Positions 12,884-26,610 of a stretch of 64,000 nucleotides of DNA are shown here, in pieces. The stretch covers positions 1 to 64,000 of the forward strand of contig JAAFIR010000012.1 in NCBI GenBank assembly GCA_013297885.1, given 5' to 3'. A program made the position numbers and the translations under genes. Origin of the DNA: Leptospirales bacterium. GTDB lineage: Bacteria; Spirochaetota; Leptospiria; Leptospirales; Leptospiraceae. Below the pieces are notes generated by a model, which saw only the letters and a program-made list of their open reading frames with translations, did not search any database and had not been told where the DNA came from. Positions within the stretch are counted from its first letter, which is position 1. Every line of letters begins with the position of its first letter.

Positions 12884-13252
12884 ATGGGAACTTTTTTTAT
12901 TAATGGTAAAATTGAAAACCATTCAAATAGAGAGAAAAATTTAATGATTCAAAAAATCTTAGTTGATACTGGAAGTGAATACACTTGGATTTCTGAAATC
13001 ACATTAAATTCAATTGGAGTGGAAGTTAAAAAAAAAGATGTGCTCTTCAAAATGGCAAATGGACAAATTATTAAAAGAGATATTGGTTTTATAATTTTTC
13101 GGTACGATAAATATTTCACAATTGATGAAGTTGTTTTTGCAAAAAAATCTGATATGCAATTACTCGGTGCAAGAACTCTTGAAGGTTTAAATTTGTTAGT
13201 GGATGCTCAGAATAAAAAACTAGTTGCTGCTGGTCCAAGTTTAGCAGCTTAA
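12884..13252 (+). CDS. Retropepsin-like (clan AA) aspartic protease
   Basis: The 122-residue protein carries LVDTGSEYTWI, the DTGS active-site motif of a single-domain aspartic protease, and later MQLLGARTLEGL, the hydrophobic-hydrophobic-Gly element that follows in this fold. It would have to act as a homodimer. No signal peptide or membrane segment is seen, so it is probably cytoplasmic. The spacing between AGG and ATG is short. A stand-alone gene facing the helicase divergently and mrp convergently. Substrate unknown. Similar small bacterial proteases are widespread but poorly characterised. Confidence 0.8.
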   Translation: MGTFFINGKIENHSNREKNLMIQKILVDTGSEYTWISEITLNSIGVEVKKKDVLFKMANGQIIKRDIGFIIFRYDKYFTIDEVVFAKKSDMQLLGARTLEGLNLLVDAQNKKLVAAGPSLAA

Positions 13253-15239: not shown

Positions 15240-15773
15240 ATGGAAACAACTCTTCTAAAACTAACAGTAACTGAAATGGAAAAAAATCCCGAGAAATGGG
15301 AACGATTTGAGTTATATAATGGAGAACCTTTAGAAATGACTTATACTAAACCTATACATGCAAGAATATTAAGTAGAATTACTCACAGAATTCAAAACTG
15401 GATAGAGTCAGCTGGTGGATATGGAGATGTTTATGCTGGAGAAGGTGGAATTAAATTTTCAGAAGAGATTCGATATTGTTATGATCTAGCTTGGTCAGAT
15501 GTAAGAATTACTGAAGATGAAATTCCAACAAAAGCTTTTCCACTAATGATTGAAATTGTTTCTGATGGAAATGAAATTAATAAACTATTATCAAAAGTAG
15601 ATGATTATTTAAAATTTGGAGCTAAAGAAGTTTGGTTAGTATATCCAACAAGAAAATCAATTCAAGTTTATTATCCCGACAACACTGCTAGAACTTTTCA
15701 TATGGAAGATACAATCACAACAGGTGAGTATATGAAAGGATTTTCACTTTCACTAAAAGAAATTTTTAATTAA
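15240..15773 (+). CDS. Uma2 family (DUF820) putative PD-(D/E)XK endonuclease
   Basis: This 177-residue protein shows the Uma2 pattern: N-terminal E-x-x-x-G-E-P-L region (FELYNGEPLEMTYTKP), H-x-x-I-x-x-x-I helix (HARILSRITHRIQNW), a DLAWSDVRI segment where the family has PD-x-x-V, then LMIEIVSD with the E-x-V and KVDDYLKFGAKEVWLV, corresponding to the K-x-x-x-Y motif. The family is restriction-endonuclease-like and of unknown biological role. A second member is at 52534-53130. A stand-alone gene between repeat D and a DUF3052 remnant; probably accessory. Confidence 0.82.
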   Translation: METTLLKLTVTEMEKNPEKWERFELYNGEPLEMTYTKPIHARILSRITHRIQNWIESAGGYGDVYAGEGGIKFSEEIRYCYDLAWSDVRITEDEIPTKAFPLMIEIVSDGNEINKLLSKVDDYLKFGAKEVWLVYPTRKSIQVYYPDNTARTFHMEDTITTGEYMKGFSLSLKEIFN

Positions 15774-15955
15774 GTTCTATTTTTAACTGGGATTATTAGT
15801 TTTAATCCACTCCAAATTTCATCTACTGCACAAACTTTAATATCTACAAGTCCATTATGAATTGCAAATTCTCGAATAATTGTTTTTTGTAAATTTGTGT
15901 AGATTTTGAAGGAGAAATGATAAGACTTCAAAATGTTTTTTAAAAATAGAATCAA
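15770..15955 (-). pseudogene. DUF3052 C-terminal remnant
   Basis: The last 40 residues (NLQKTIIREFAI, HNGLVDIKVCAVDEIWSGLK, then LIIPVKNR) match the strongly conserved C-terminal block of DUF3052 proteins, which are about 130 residues in full. Only about 20 poorly matching residues precede it, and the N-terminal half is missing. Upstream sequence is AT-rich and holds the terminator of the next gene. It overlaps the Uma2 stop by 4 bp. I regard it as a truncated remnant and not a gene. Confidence 0.6.
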
Positions 15956-15992
15956 AGAGAATGAATTTTTTTTATAAATTGATCATAAAAAC

Positions 15993-16017
15993 AAAAAACC
16001 CGCTGTATAAAAGCGGG
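15993..16017 (-). terminator. Rho-independent terminator of the Lys/Ala-rich peptide gene
   Basis: On the minus strand a GC stem (AGCCCGC...GCGGGT, core CCCGCT/AGCGGG with 7-nt loop) is followed by a T run. It lies 40 bp past the stop at 16058. Confidence 0.8.
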
Positions 16018-16057
16018 CTTAGGTTAAAACACTTATATTTTTTTTAAAGAAGTTAAA

Positions 16058-16132
16058 TTACTTCTTTTTTGCAGCAGGTTTTTTCTTTGCAGCAGGTTTT
16101 TTCTTAGCAGCAGCTTTCTTTTTTGCAACCAT
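16058..16132 (-). CDS. 24-residue Lys/Ala/Pro-repeat basic peptide
   Basis: A short gene: ATG at 16130-16132, stop TAA at 16058-16060. The peptide starts MVAKKKAAAKKK and then repeats PAAKKK twice. It is strongly basic and resembles the tails of histone H1-like and HU-like bacterial proteins, so nucleic-acid binding is a fair inference. Support for it as a real gene is a strong ribosome binding site (TTGGAGG) about 8 bp before the ATG, and a textbook terminator 40 bp after the stop. A long AT-rich region lies upstream. It could be a nucleoid-associated or ribosome-associated peptide; the sequence alone does not decide. Confidence 0.75.
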   Translation of the reverse strand: MVAKKKAAAKKKPAAKKKPAAKKK

Positions 16133-16920
16133 TGATAGGTCCTCCAAATTAAATTTTGGTCTGTTTCTTTTTGTATCTTCCAAATCCGACCAATAGAATT
16201 AGAGACATAATAAAAACACCCTAGGGCTTTTGTAAACAAAAAAAATAATTTTTTAAAAAAAAATATTTTTTTTTTATTCCTGATTAAAGTATCGGCATGA
16301 GGTATAAAAAAAATATAAAAGATTTTTTTTATTTTTTATTATATTTTTTTATAATAAAAGTATATTAGAATTTCCTAATATACTTTTATTATAATTCATT
16401 TATTTTCTTATCTTAAGAATTTATTTTATAAAATTTAAAAATTTAATTCATTTTTTCTAAAAAAAATAAATTTATATATCAAATTCTATTTTAAAATTCA
16501 AAAAGTCTTTAAAGTAAATAGTTTGAAAAAAACATTTCAATTTTTTCTTTTAATCCAAAATTAAATAATTATTTTTTTATTCAAAATGAATTATAAAATC
16601 TCAAACTATCCTAAACTAATAAAATTTTTTTGAATTTAAAAATTCATTTTTCTAGGTCAGTGAATTTGAATAACTTGTTTTAAAAAAAATAAGTCATTTG
16701 TATTAATGAATTTAATGATTTTTCAATTAAAAGAACTAACTAAAATTTAAATAGGAAATTTTATCCATTTGGAATAATAAAATATGTTACGCAAATTTTT
16801 TAATATTTAATTTTTCGATAAAGTAAAGTCAAAAAAAAGGAATATTATTTAACAAATCCTTAAGCTCGCAAACTTTGCGGCTGCAAACCCCCTGTTATAA
16901 TTACTTAAAAGAATTCAGCT
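16133..16920. other. Long AT-rich intergenic region
   Basis: About 790 bp with extreme A+T content and no supportable gene. It should hold the promoter of the Lys/Ala peptide gene. It contains the perfect palindrome at 16351-16392, and at 16861-16895 a GC-richer patch (CTCGCAAACTTTGCGGC...CAAACCCCCTG) with a small hairpin (GCAAACTTTGC). Otherwise I see nothing. Confidence 0.5.
16351..16392. repeat. Perfect 18-bp inverted repeat
   Basis: The arms are ATAATAAAAGTATATTAG (16351-16368) and its exact reverse complement (16375-16392), with a 6-nt loop AATTTC. In random AT-rich DNA an 18-bp perfect match at this spacing is unlikely. It could be a bidirectional terminator, a cruciform or a regulator site. 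Confidence 0.6.
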
Positions 16921-17052
16921 ATGGACGAAGAAAGTAAGTGAGTTAATAATAATATATTAAAACAATTGAACAAAGAGAATTGAAAAATTGGATTAGAATT
17001 AGCGAAACAATATATGAATAAAGGTAATATTGCAAAATATAATGCTATTTAA
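16921..17052 (+). pseudogene. Short ORF remnant with two in-frame TGA codons
   Basis: From ATG 16921 one frame runs 43 codons to TAA (17050-17052), broken by TGA at 16939-16941 and 16981-16983. The pieces read MDEESK, VNNNILKQLNKEN and KIGLELAKQYMNKGNIAKYN. The last is a convincing amphipathic segment. Both TGA codons could be former TGG. I do not recognise the protein. It may also be chance. Confidence 0.3.
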
Positions 17053-17110
17053 GTTTAAAAAAAGTAATATTTTTAATTTAAATTGAGTTTTAAATTTTGA
17101 GGATAATTAT

Positions 17111-18805
17111 ATGAAACTAAGCAACTTGTTCATTATATTTTTACTAATATTCAATATTAGTAACTGTGAGAAAAAAAAGAAAAATTTAATTCCAATACAA
17201 AATCAAGTCGGGATTGATAAAAATGGAAATGTTGTTATTGGAACTCAAAACTCTTCAACAACTCCCAATACTACACCTTCTGCAAATACTGCCCCGGTTG
17301 GTACATTAAGTAATACAGCACCAACTGTAACAGGTGTTTATGAAAATGAAGTTTTTAGTTACCAAACTATGAGAGTAGTTACAATTGATGCAAGTGTTGT
17401 TGATGGCTCTGATCAACCAATCGTTGGTGCTGTTGTAGAAATTAGAGATACAACAAATGTAAATACAATTTACCAACAAGTTTCCAATTCATCTGGAAGG
17501 GTTCAAGGTTCATTAAATTTAAATACAACTGAAACTACAATTTATGTTTATGTAATTTATAGAGGTGTAACTACACCAGCAAAAGCTGTTGTTGTCAGAA
17601 CTGGTGATAATAAAGTTTTAGTTAGAATTACTCAAATCAAAATTGATTTACCAACTTCTACTATCACTTCGACTGGTTCTAGTTCTACAGGAACAAGTTT
17701 AACTGATTCAGATGGTGATGGAGTTTTAGATTCAATTGACGATTATCCAAATGATCCAAACAAAGCAACTAGATTAAAGTTTCCTACCAATGGAGTAAAT
17801 ACAATTGCTTTTGAAGATTTATTTCCGAATGCTGGTGATGCTGATTTGAATGATTCAGTTGTTGTTTATTATATTGAAGAAGATTTAAATGCTGCTGGTC
17901 AGATCGTTGAAATCAGAGGAAATTACCAATACATGGCTCATGGTTCTGGATTTCAACATTCCCTTTATTTGAGATTACCAAGTACAGTTAATGTAAATTA
18001 TTCTTCTGAAGTAAGAAATGGAAATGGTGTTCTTTTAGGAAATGCTGCAATGACAAAATCCAAAACAGAAACAACAGGAATTAATGCGTTCACTCCTTCT
18101 GTAACTGATTTACAAGATGGATTAAGAATACTAGGCAACACAAACACAACTATGCCCGCTTGGAATTCAAGAACTACAGACACAACTTATGTAAATGGTC
18201 ATTTTGCTAAAGTCAAAGTTGTTTTTAATACACCAGTAGCACGTTCAGTAATTGGACTTGCACCATATGATACTTTTATGAGAAATGAATCTAAAAATGT
18301 GGATGGAACTTATCCTACTGATGCTCCTCGAGCTGTTACTTCAGCAGGAAGTTTCCAAGTTTATGAAGTTCATAGACCCGGTTTTTATAAATTTACTTCA
18401 CAAGCAACAGTGGATGGGGATCTGAGAGAAATTGGTGAAGATATTTATATCGATAAAAACAATTTCCCATTTGGTATAGTTGTTCCAGGACTTTGGAAAT
18501 GGCCTAGAGAATCAAGAGATTTGAGAATTCTAGCTCAAACTGGTTATCCAAAATTTGCAAATTGGACTTCTACACAAGGTGTTCAAGATGCGAATTGGTA
18601 TTCAGATTCAGCTGCAGCATCTTCCACAAATAATTATTATGCAAGTGTAATAACAAATAAAGCAGCATTAGACACTCCAAACTCTCAGTTACTTGCCTTT
18701 TTAGGTTCAGTAAATTCATTTGCTGAGTTTCAAATTTTACTAGGTTTATTAGTTGTTGGAGTAATTGGATACTTTATAATCAAAAAGAAATTCCAAAAAG
18801 CTTAA
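17111..18805 (+). CDS. LruC-domain lipoprotein with C-terminal membrane anchor
   Basis: The 564-residue protein has a lipoprotein signal (ending ISNC). A Thr/Ser-rich linker follows, then a carboxypeptidase-regulatory-like fold (about 90-180: QPIVGAVVEIRD, SSGRVQGSLNL), a calcium-binding type segment (DSDGDGVLDSIDDYPNDP), and an LruC domain (AFEDLFPNAGDADLNDSVV onward). LruC is named from a Leptospira lipoprotein linked with recurrent uveitis. Unusually, residues 540-560 form a hydrophobic helix followed by KKKFQKA, a membrane anchor with a basic tail. The ribosome binding site is GAGG. A terminator follows the gene. Probably a surface lipoprotein; its function is unknown. Confidence 0.85.
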   Translation: MKLSNLFIIFLLIFNISNCEKKKKNLIPIQNQVGIDKNGNVVIGTQNSSTTPNTTPSANTAPVGTLSNTAPTVTGVYENEVFSYQTMRVVTIDASVVDGSDQPIVGAVVEIRDTTNVNTIYQQVSNSSGRVQGSLNLNTTETTIYVYVIYRGVTTPAKAVVVRTGDNKVLVRITQIKIDLPTSTITSTGSSSTGTSLTDSDGDGVLDSIDDYPNDPNKATRLKFPTNGVNTIAFEDLFPNAGDADLNDSVVVYYIEEDLNAAGQIVEIRGNYQYMAHGSGFQHSLYLRLPSTVNVNYSSEVRNGNGVLLGNAAMTKSKTETTGINAFTPSVTDLQDGLRILGNTNTTMPAWNSRTTDTTYVNGHFAKVKVVFNTPVARSVIGLAPYDTFMRNESKNVDGTYPTDAPRAVTSAGSFQVYEVHRPGFYKFTSQATVDGDLREIGEDIYIDKNNFPFGIVVPGLWKWPRESRDLRILAQTGYPKFANWTSTQGVQDANWYSDSAAASSTNNYYASVITNKAALDTPNSQLLAFLGSVNSFAEFQILLGLLVVGVIGYFIIKKKFQKA

Positions 18806-24107: not shown

Positions 24108-25412
24108 TTATTCATTCCAAGGAATTAAATTTTTTTTATTTTCAGAAATTAAATATAGTTTTTCATTTTGAATCATAAATTTTATTTGAATACTTTTTTC
24201 ATTTTTATCATTTTCTGCAAGAATGAAATTTTTATCAAATTTAGCTAAGTATATTTGATCTGATTCTCTATCCTCATATCTTTCTGTGCTAAAATTTCTA
24301 GTTAAAATTTTTCCAGAATTAGAAAATTTGATTAATACTTGGTAACTACTTCCAAACCTTGCAATAAAATCAGAAAGAATCAATTCGGGAATTTTATCTC
24401 CATCTATATCTTGAATTAGAATTTTTCCTTCGTGTGGTGTTTGGTTGTATTCAATTTCATTTTTTTTTGTGATTAAAACTAATTTATCCTTTTTGTAATA
24501 TTCACAAAATCGAAATTTACAATCATTTTCATATTCAATTTCTATTAGTTTTCTATCTTTGGTTAAATAAGTTTCTTTTTTGTTTAAACTTCTAAAATCT
24601 AAAAATCTTTCTTTATGTTCAAGGCTAATCGAGTCCAAAAAAACTTTTTTTAATATTGAATCATTTTTCCATTTTGAATTTTCAAATGAATATTTTTTAA
24701 ATTCAAAATAAGAAAATTTTTTAAAATTTTCATCTTCAATATAACCAGAAGTTTTGTTATCATAAATTTCAAAAAACTTTTTTTCTTTAACTGTAATCTC
24801 AGAATTGAAACGATACAAACCTTTTTTCAAGTTTTTAAATTTTCTTAATCCATTTTTTTCTTTTTCAAATAAACTTATATCTCTTTCGATTAAAACTAAA
24901 TAATCTTTAAAATGTATTTCTTTTAATTTTAAACTTGTTTTGGCTACTTCTTCATTATCAAATGTTTCGACAAGTTCTCTCAAAACAAAATAATCTTTTT
25001 CATTTAGTTTTAATTTTATCCAAGTATCGTCATACCTATCATACTGAAAAATTTTCCACTCATCTAAAAAGTTTTCTGTTTTGGAATCCAAAAAAGGTTT
25101 TTCATAAATGCTAATTTTTTTTGGTGAATAAAAATACTTTTTATAAGCAAAATGAAAATTTGTAATTTTTTTCCAAGATTCATTTTTAAATTCTTCTTTT
25201 AAAACATAAAAATCTTCATTTTTAAATTTGATAAAAATTAAATTTTGATTTTTTTTATTATCTTCAAAAAATTCAAAACTTTCTTTATAACCAATAAAAA
25301 ATTCTTTTTTTAATTCTATATCTTTAAAAACTTTAATTCCATTTGGCTCAGTTACAAATTGAAGATTATTTGAATAAACAAAACTAGTTATCAAAAATAA
25401 AATTAATTTCAT
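24108..25412 (-). CDS. Secreted protein with SH3-like repeats and a C-terminal D-x-D-G-D segment
   Basis: The 434-residue protein has a signal peptide (LFLITSFVYS). The body contains two or more short beta-rich units (about 25-75, 90-150, 165-220) that resemble bacterial SH3-type repeats. Near residue 330 it has LIQDIDGDKIPELILSDF, a FG-GAP/EF-hand-like calcium site common in surface proteins. It is Lys/Phe-rich, like the rest of this genome. I do not recognise a named family; envelope location is inferred. It sits between repeat copies F and G. Confidence 0.7.
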   Translation of the reverse strand: MKLILFLITSFVYSNNLQFVTEPNGIKVFKDIELKKEFFIGYKESFEFFEDNKKNQNLIFIKFKNEDFYVLKEEFKNESWKKITNFHFAYKKYFYSPKKISIYEKPFLDSKTENFLDEWKIFQYDRYDDTWIKLKLNEKDYFVLRELVETFDNEEVAKTSLKLKEIHFKDYLVLIERDISLFEKEKNGLRKFKNLKKGLYRFNSEITVKEKKFFEIYDNKTSGYIEDENFKKFSYFEFKKYSFENSKWKNDSILKKVFLDSISLEHKERFLDFRSLNKKETYLTKDRKLIEIEYENDCKFRFCEYYKKDKLVLITKKNEIEYNQTPHEGKILIQDIDGDKIPELILSDFIARFGSSYQVLIKFSNSGKILTRNFSTERYEDRESDQIYLAKFDKNFILAENDKNEKSIQIKFMIQNEKLYLISENKKNLIPWNE

Positions 25413-25464
25413 AATTCAAATTATGCACATTGATTTATTACTACAAGTAAATTTTAACTATTCG

Positions 25465-25602
25465 AGCGAAAGTGATTGAAGCGAAAATCCTTTTTGCTTG
25501 CAAAAAGATTGTAGCGAAAAGCACGATTTTTTTTGACAGTGGCATTGGGCCAGACCGGGGGTCGAGACCCACTGTCTTTCCACTGTCAAAAAAAATTCGC
25601 AC
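25465..25602 (-). repeat. GGGCGA double-hairpin element, copy G
   Basis: On the minus strand: GTGCGAATTTTTTTT, hairpin 1 (TTGACAGTGG / CCACTGTCAA with a GC-rich loop that also occurs in copy D), linker ATCGTGCTTTTCGCTAC, hairpin 2 (AATCTTTTTGC/GCAAAAAGGATT), then CGCTTCAATCACTTTCGC. It lies between two minus-strand genes. Confidence 0.85.
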
Positions 25603-25624: not shown

Positions 25625-26044
25625 TTAAGTTTCTAAAATTTTTACAAGACGAGCTAAATTTTCATTCATTTCTTTTTTAAAAATTCCTGAAAGCAAACCT
25701 TCACTAAAACTAAGAAGTCCTTTTAAACTCATTTCATCAGTGATACTTAAATAAGTTTTTCCTTCTCTTTCTGAAAATTCATATAAATCTTGAAACTCCA
25801 AACTAGATGTTACACATTTAGCTAAAATATTTTTATTATCTATGATTTCGATGATTTTGTATTCAGATTGGATATTGATAACTGAAAGGTTGAGACTGAT
25901 TTTACAAACTTGTTTTGAATCATCAATCCAATTCGATTCTTTAACAGAAGAATTGTATTTTGGCATAGTTTCAAAATTTCTAACATAAGAAAAAACTTTT
26001 TCGATGTCTGAATTAATTAAGGCTTCTACTTTTGTGGTAAACAT
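25625..26044 (-). CDS. START-like/SRPBCC (polyketide-cyclase type) domain protein
   Basis: The internal ATG at 26044 gives 139 residues that match a stand-alone SRPBCC domain from the first residues (EALINSDIEKVFSYVRNFETMPKYNSSV). Then come alternating strands and the closing helix (SGIFKKEMNENLARLVKIL). The frame is open further up to 26143, but those 33 residues look random and overlap the divergent nfeD region. Such proteins bind small hydrophobic ligands in a cavity; the ligand is unknown. It has no operon partner. Confidence 0.8.
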   Translation of the reverse strand: MFTTKVEALINSDIEKVFSYVRNFETMPKYNSSVKESNWIDDSKQVCKISLNLSVINIQSEYKIIEIIDNKNILAKCVTSSLEFQDLYEFSEREGKTYLSITDEMSLKGLLSFSEGLLSGIFKKEMNENLARLVKILET

Positions 26045-26102
26045 ATTTATTAGACTTAGAAATCTATTTGACAACAAGTTCTTTAAGTTGAAATTATACT
26101 GG

Positions 26103-26610
26103 ATGAAAAGTTTTTTTTTTAAAAGTTTACTTTGCGATTGCAATACCAGTAACTTTGATTTTTTTATTTCAAACGGTTCTTACTTTTTTTGGAATTGATT
26201 CTGAAGATGGAATTGATTTGTTTACTTTAAAAAATTTAACTCATTTTTTAGTTGGGTTTTCATGGACTGCAATTTCACTTTATAGTAATTTAGAAAATTT
26301 ATTTTTATTATATTTTATTTCATTTTTAGTTGGTTCAGTTTTTGTTTTTACTTTTTTATTTTTAATGAAACAATTTGGAAAACTTAGTGAAGATAATAGT
26401 TTTCAAATCTCATCTTGTATTGGAAAAATTGCTGAAGTTTATTTGACAATTCCTGAAAATAAAACTGGATTTGGAAAAGTAATGCTTTCAGTAAATGGTT
26501 CTTTTAAAGAACTAGATGCAATGACTGAATTTGAAAAAATTTTAACAGGTCAGAAAGTGAAAATTATACGTATTGAAAATAATACAATTTTATTTGTGGA
26601 GAAAATTTGA
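26103..26610 (+). pseudogene. NfeD-like membrane protein with a frame break in a T10 run
   Basis: The open frame 26155-26610 codes two or three membrane helices followed by an OB-fold-like domain, as in short NfeD proteins that partner flotillins. It lacks a proper start. In its frame, upstream codons give KVYFAIAIPVTLIFLFQTVLTF, the usual NfeD N-terminus, but a TGA lies before them. An ATG at 26103 is in another frame; exactly ten T follow at 26111-26120. With nine T the ATG would run straight into the NfeD frame (MKSFFLKVYF). So the gene has a +1 shift in a homopolymer: a pseudogene, a phase-variable switch, or a sequencing error. It overlaps flotillin (ATGA). Confidence 0.7.

Follow-up and report, generated by a model that had tools for sequence, protein, structure and literature searches.

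A conserved 24-codon gene in Leptospiraceae genomes encodes a predicted free-standing lysine-, alanine- and proline-rich microprotein

A 24-codon open reading frame with its own signals

The stretch of DNA analyzed here (the window, 64,000 nucleotides of contig JAAFIR010000012.1 from a Leptospirales bacterium) carries a 24-codon open reading frame (ORF) on its minus strand, with the following features at and around it.

16058..16132, minus strand: 24-codon ORF MVAKKKAAAKKKPAAKKKPAAKKK followed by TAA (ATG at 16132-16130, TAA at 16060-16058)
16141..16145, minus strand: Shine-Dalgarno sequence GGAGG, 8 bases 5' of the ATG of this ORF
16133..16203, minus strand: 5' leader, of about 71 nt on the assumption of a transcription start immediately 3' of the GTC that ends the promoter-like element
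16193-16188 and 16161-16156, minus strand: possible long-loop leader stem, TTGGTC paired with GACCAA
16204..16236, minus strand: promoter-like element TTTACA-N19-ATTATGTC (-35 at 16236-16231, -10 TATTAT at 16212-16207, then GTC)
15996..16020, minus strand: intrinsic terminator AAGCCCGC...GCGGGTTT with a T run (9-pair stem, 7-base loop)
16240..17100, no strand assigned: AT-rich intergenic stretch upstream of the gene, part of its setting

The encoded peptide would contain 12 Lys, 8 Ala and 2 Pro, with no acidic residues. The first-pass annotation had described a gene of this position and length with a strong ribosome-binding site, a textbook terminator and a long AT-rich upstream region, and all of these were recovered. 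The hairpin at 16020-15996 was the sole terminator found in 15700-17200, where 0.2 were expected, and the GC content upstream was 8 to 18% in 200-base windows between 16300 and 16799, rising up to 26% beyond. No ORF of 60 or more residues was found in 16240-17110, an upstream stretch of about 870 bp. The arrangement points to a standalone microprotein gene with its own promoter-like element, leader, strong ribosome-binding site and terminator.

The gene is kept in all eight family genomes examined

A protein search of 41 genomes (the window's own, G000, and 40 relatives) gave a match in nine at E up to 1. The identical 24 residues were found in G001 to G004, and a version with 83% identity in G005; the orthologs of G007 (29 residues) and G006 (MVAPKKKKTVKKKAAKKKVAKKKAARKKK) were missed by this search and recovered with pattern searches. 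The peptide gene, in a 24- or 29-residue version, was thus present in all eight Leptospiraceae genomes examined, and its product was letter-identical in five, including G004, which belongs to another genus. A lack of conservation in relatives had been named beforehand as a finding that would count against the gene. Since it is kept in every family member examined, we conclude that, judged from its sequence record, the 24-codon ORF is almost certainly a real gene.

The orthologs in G005, G006 and G007 are altered in the spacers, and those in G006 and G007 also in length. Triplets of lysine (KKK) every 5 to 6 residues are kept, while the Ala/Pro/Val/Ser/Thr spacers drift; the orthologs next to CutA show this well, with the triplets retained despite spacer and length variation in G001 to G003, G005 (MVAKKKAAAKKKVASKKKTASKKK) and G007 (MVAKKKAAKKKAAKKKAAKKKAAKKKVPV). 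All nine copies in the eight genomes consist of Lys/Ala repeats without acidic residues. Proline lies within the repeats in six of the nine, occurs once outside the repeats in G006 and G007, and is absent from the G005 copy. The ninth copy is a second one in G003 (contig 46, L015, the same as L034), with 18 residues (MVAKKKPAAKKKPAAKKK), a weaker Shine-Dalgarno sequence (GAGG) and the element TATTATGTC, from which the TTTACA part is absent. This copy may be foreign: its contig is not the one that carries the first copy, and the assembly is listed as 7% contaminated.

GGAGG precedes the ATG in seven of the eight genomes and GGAGAGG in G006. An in-frame stop lies 5 to 22 codons 5' of the ATG in all nine copies, with the Shine-Dalgarno sequence placed at this ATG, and in none of the nine is the peptide fused to an N-terminal domain in the manner of AlgP-type tails. 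A longer ORF starting from TTG at 16183 (41 residues) was rejected because of the Shine-Dalgarno position and the in-frame stops found 5 codons before the ATG in G001 to G003, G005 and G006. A 68-residue TTG-started ORF in another frame was likewise rejected, as the synonymous-only substitution pattern described below matches the 24-codon frame.

In the window, a Uma2-family ORF (15240-15773) is the convergent neighbor and a gene for an LruC/DUF4842 protein (17111-18805) the divergent one. The convergent downstream neighbor is CutA in five of the eight genomes (G001, G002, G003, G005 and G007); in G004 the next gene lies in tandem and is Mg-chelatase-like, just under the Pfam cut-off, and in G006 a convergent ORF follows the peptide gene. 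With CutA in five genomes, Uma2 in G000 and the Mg-chelatase-like gene in G004, the gene is kept with its promoter while its neighbors change. The first-pass suggestion that relatives would carry it beside the same neighbors therefore applies to the five CutA-linked genomes and not to the window's own.

Substitutions between genera are synonymous

Between G000 and G004, the 24 codons differ by 12 base changes, none of which alters an amino acid. Random change would give 21 to 26% synonymous differences, depending on the assumed transition bias, and by hand calculation the probability of 12 out of 12 is about 1e-7 or less if the changes are independent. Beside this identical peptide, the ApbC proteins of the same two genomes share 59 to 60% identity. 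The comparison of G000 with G005 gave 10 synonymous and 4 non-synonymous codon changes.

Within the genus, G000 differs from G001 to G003 at 2 of 22 Lys/Ala/Pro codons, and G001 to G003 differ among themselves at 0 of 22. For comparison, at identical Lys/Ala/Pro residues the codon differs in 38 to 47% of cases in ApbC (G000, G002 and G003) and in 29 to 42% in CutA (G001 to G003, 12 to 14 codons each). This codon conservation may reflect a constraint on codons or mRNA, or recent exchange among species.

The first-pass annotation had called the use of GCT/GCA and AAA/AAG codons regular for such a genome, which is not simply so: AAG makes up 5 of 12 Lys codons in the window gene (43 of 112 over the nine copies), whereas window ORFs of at least 150 residues have it at 96 of 1463. 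Furthermore, in the family copies 1 of 38 KKK positions (counted with overlap) is written as nine A, versus 6 of 21 in the window ORFs, counts that are not independent since the copies are related, and for which the ORF list was mechanical. The codon pattern looks as if slippery runs of A were avoided in a message that is translated, and the other KKK sites of the window partly follow it.

A promoter-like element with fixed spacing, and a terminator, accompany the gene

The TTTACA/TATTAT pair of the window gene has an 18-base spacer (16236-16207) and agrees with the consensus at 10 of 12 positions. Near the gene, promoter-like sites in general are no commoner than in shuffles (11 found versus 10.9 expected), and the case for this element therefore lies in its conservation: TTTACA-N18-NNTTATGTC precedes the peptide gene with identical spacing in all eight family genomes. 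The exact form TTTACA-N14-24-ATTATGTC had 11 matches over these genomes, seven of them at the peptide gene and all seven with N19, and it occurs once in the entire genome to which the window belongs. Three of the remaining four lie elsewhere with other spacings (L045, L048 and L051), and the fourth (L052) is a G003 contig end that repeats the peptide gene's own promoter and leader. As the reversed control gave nine matches in the same genomes, the pattern itself is not rarer than chance, and the evidence for a promoter comes from its fixed place and fixed spacing. A GC-rich hairpin with a T run was also seen by eye 3' of the gene in all eight genomes, a tool score being available for that of the window alone. 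The common promoter-like element, together with the conservation and the synonymous-only change, strongly supports the first-pass claim of a tiny gene.

Parts of the leader are conserved within the genus, and between genera there is little in common besides the promoter-like element. The stem TTGGTC/GACCAA is kept in sequence in the four genomes of the genus, but for the window alone it was not significant (101 of 200 shuffles did as well). Among perfect leader stems, the best in G004 had 10 bp and was matched by 2 of 200 shuffles; those of G005 and G007 had 7 bp (13 and 19 shuffles), those of G001 to G003 (43 to 48) and G000 (101) had 6 bp, and that of G006 had 5 bp (183). The fold energy of the G000 leader was no better than that of shuffles (z +0.66). 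Most leaders allow a long-loop stem, but with weak statistics, and a conserved 5' hairpin is suggestive only.

Similar stretches beyond the family

When the protein search was run on a sample of 392 genomes of the phylum, 10 had matches at E up to 0.5; this search was not exhaustive, since G006 and G007 were missed. A pattern of Shine-Dalgarno sequence, ATG and two KKK triplets matched 22 of the 392, of which six belong to the family. Of the 16 non-family matches, 15 open longer proteins (at least 195 residues, several of them truncated where the locus ends), and only that in G011, from another family of the order, is a tiny free-standing peptide (MPAAKKKAAAKKKTTAKKKAAKKKKK). Longer K-repeat ORFs of 50 to 98 residues were found in G012, G022, G023, G025 and G029 of the order.

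A strict peptide pattern, run over about 85,000 species genomes, found eight stretches, a scan that would miss variants of the G006 and G007 type and from which genomes close to the window's may be absent. Five were in four Leptospiraceae metagenome-assembled genomes (MAGs). The other three, from Stenotrophobium, Ca. Falkowbacteria and a Nitrospira MAG, likewise start with MVAKKK(A/P)AAKKK after a strong Shine-Dalgarno sequence, but their ORFs (60, 64 and 96 residues) are 2.5 to 4 times longer, and the resemblance need not mean common descent with the family peptide. As a check for phage origin, the strict pattern was searched in viral contigs, with no matches.

The broader KKK-repeat pattern was about as frequent in reversed as in forward sequence in many genomes and served as a finder only. 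Three KKK candidates in G006 (three matches, three in the reversed control) included no free-standing peptide. Stretches in three f2 genomes (L012 to L014) lie inside open frames of 207 to 221 residues, by eye just downstream of the apparent end of FliN, and were taken as not orthologous. In L089 to L091 (G018, G021 and G013) and L096 (G025), the K-repeats carry on in frame from a conserved QISDQAYRK(K/N)W stretch, and such proteins could be a fused counterpart of the free-standing tail. Another protein, L054 in G006, opens with an H1-like stretch, after which comes a CYNCGTKFYDLN motif resembling a zinc ribbon.

Relation to known H1-like tails

The 24-residue peptide had no Pfam match at E up to 0.01 and the other peptide forms none up to 1; none of the four peptides compared with NCBIfam matched a family at E up to 1. 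Hc2 (PF07382) matched neither the 24-residue peptide nor the 29-, 29- and 26-residue ones. The 60-residue Stenotrophobium look-alike gave a weak, sub-threshold match to Hc2 (E 0.25, Pfam) and to the H1-like NCBIfam models compared, NF038052/NF038053 (0.24 and 0.65). A literature search with the peptide letters and related words returned no report of the gene among the matches listed; one peptide string occurs in a single paper on an unrelated topic.

The closest parallels are longer proteins. In AlgP of Pseudomonas, a 154-residue region of C-terminal KPAA repeats comes after a helical N-terminal domain, and PhaF carries a homologous repeat domain. In PMC9239181 such repeats are likened to the histone H1 tail, KPAA-repeat peptides are reported to bind DNA, and a tail of this kind is described as required in Pseudomonas to position granules. 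Both AlgP and the peptide are built of Lys/Ala/Pro tandem repeats, but here the tail is the whole 24-codon gene, and its repeats carry KKK triplets where AlgP has a single K. Chlamydial Hc2 and NF038052/NF038053 share lysine-rich repeats with the peptide; Hc2, however, is 165 to 237 residues long according to PMC2848022, compared to 24 to 29 here, and the family peptides match no such model. The first-pass idea of a free-standing H1-like tail was thus favored by composition and by the variation among orthologs, and not by the profile searches, in which only the longer look-alike scored, weakly and below threshold. Most likely, the peptide is a new, minimal version of the known bacterial H1-like tails and not a new type of system, a placement in which its function is read from sequence.

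HU and histone partners

HU was above cut-off in seven of the eight family genomes and was not found in G007, whose assembly is 75% complete and which has the peptide. The six HU copies that could be read to the end (one each from G000 and G002 to G006) finish VPTKK, VPSKK, VPPKK or IPPKK, and none of the six carries an H1-like tail; in G001, an assembly gap interrupts the HU copy. G004 has a second, divergent HU-like protein, also without such a tail. The histone model PF00808, which may not recognize FtF histones, was above cut-off in none of the eight genomes, with one match (E 0.57) inside a 1090-residue frame. In the five of the eight genomes read around smc, no ATG-started ORF of at least about 54 residues looked histone-like by eye.

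In PMC12701072, the FtF histone HLp of Leptospira is described as a folded, small DNA-binding protein, and HU is said to be missing from L. interrogans and L. perolatii. The peptide resembles HLp in being a small protein, with predicted DNA binding, from related spirochaetes. The two differ in that HLp is a folded histone; moreover, these two Leptospira species are stated to be without HU, whereas HU is present in seven of the eight genomes here.

Proposed function and alternatives

We infer expression, disorder, binding and a partner for the peptide, and DNA or RNA binding, which the first-pass annotation had also expected, is a reasonable inference. The explanation that we favor, with moderate confidence, is that the gene encodes an intrinsically disordered polycation of 24 to 29 residues that binds polyanions and acts as an H1-like tail in trans. 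Such a peptide would coat DNA, RNA or another negatively charged polymer without sequence specificity, nucleoid DNA being the first candidate and RNA or polyphosphate the alternatives, and it would act like the Lys/Ala/Pro tail of AlgP or Hc2, supplied in trans beside a tail-less HU. The lysine triplets at each 5 to 6 residues would be the constrained feature. Kept triplets with drifting spacers are what is expected of a disordered tail in which charge and spacing matter. The strict 24-residue identity across two genera goes beyond the loose need of a charge tail, so that a specific partner could exist. Against this explanation stand the lack of a profile family match, the lack of a histone-fold partner in the searches, the failure to find HU in the peptide-bearing G007 and the conserved synonymous codons within the genus, which may place part of the constraint on the mRNA. 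A stronger form, a two-part chromatin in which a tail-less HU core works with a 24-residue H1-tail microprotein provided in trans from a separate gene, we consider fairly unlikely; if it were true, the dedicated promoter would set tail dosage independently of the core.

The same strict identity in five of the eight genomes and two genera, the strong Shine-Dalgarno sequence and the within-genus codon conservation, as expected of a highly expressed gene, would also suit a tiny ribosome-associated basic protein that binds rRNA at a fixed place. Proteins such as bTHX and Sra are similar in size and charge. However, the spacer changes in G005 to G007 and the length changes in G006 and G007 are unusual for a fixed rRNA site, and the peptides match no family; we regard this reading as unlikely.

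Alternatively, the peptide could be a polyphosphate or RNA condensate factor, that is, a coacervate former instead of a nucleoid protein, with AlgP at polyphosphate granules as the parallel. The granule-positioning role of a like Lys/Ala/Pro repeat tail in Pseudomonas (PMC9239181) fits this, but charge alone cannot distinguish polyanions, and no polyphosphate gene was recognized among the profile-searched neighbors, which is a weak test. We consider it distinctly unlikely.

We give still less credence to the possibility that a small regulatory RNA or the mRNA is the functional product and the peptide incidental. Leader parts and synonymous codons are conserved within the genus and long-loop stems can be drawn, but all 12 changes between G000 and G004 are synonymous, the leaders of different genera are little alike apart from the promoter-like element, and Rfam gave no match above gathering at the locus, only three chance-level ones (E 0.55 to 0.8). 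A chance ORF or slippage product of low-complexity DNA, which the repeat-like sequence in an AT-rich genome and the near-equal forward and reversed counts of the bare KKK-repeat pattern might suggest, has a negligible probability, being already contradicted by the family-wide conservation and synonymous-only change, along with the fixed promoter spacing, the terminators and the avoidance of A runs.

On the favored reading of a polyanion-binding tail in trans, the peptide, as a conserved basic protein of very small size, would offer a natural way to test what an H1-like tail does alone. Natural variants exist with 24 and 29 residues, with 18 in the second copy, and with a triplet period of 5 or 6, so that, given a standalone gene, what the tail needs (charge, spacing or sequence) is directly testable. 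Strict conservation can thus extend to genes of fewer than 30 codons whose products are of low complexity, a class that filters easily discard.

Other features of the window

A short ORF at 12884-13252 on the plus strand gave sub-threshold matches to PF13975 and PF13650 and resembles an aspartyl protease of the retroviral type. Flavo-1 is an RNA of Bacteroidota; in this Leptospiraceae-group genome, the Rfam model matched at 25452-25532 on the plus strand, between ORFs 24108-25412 and 25625-26143, with 61.4 bits (gathering threshold 42).
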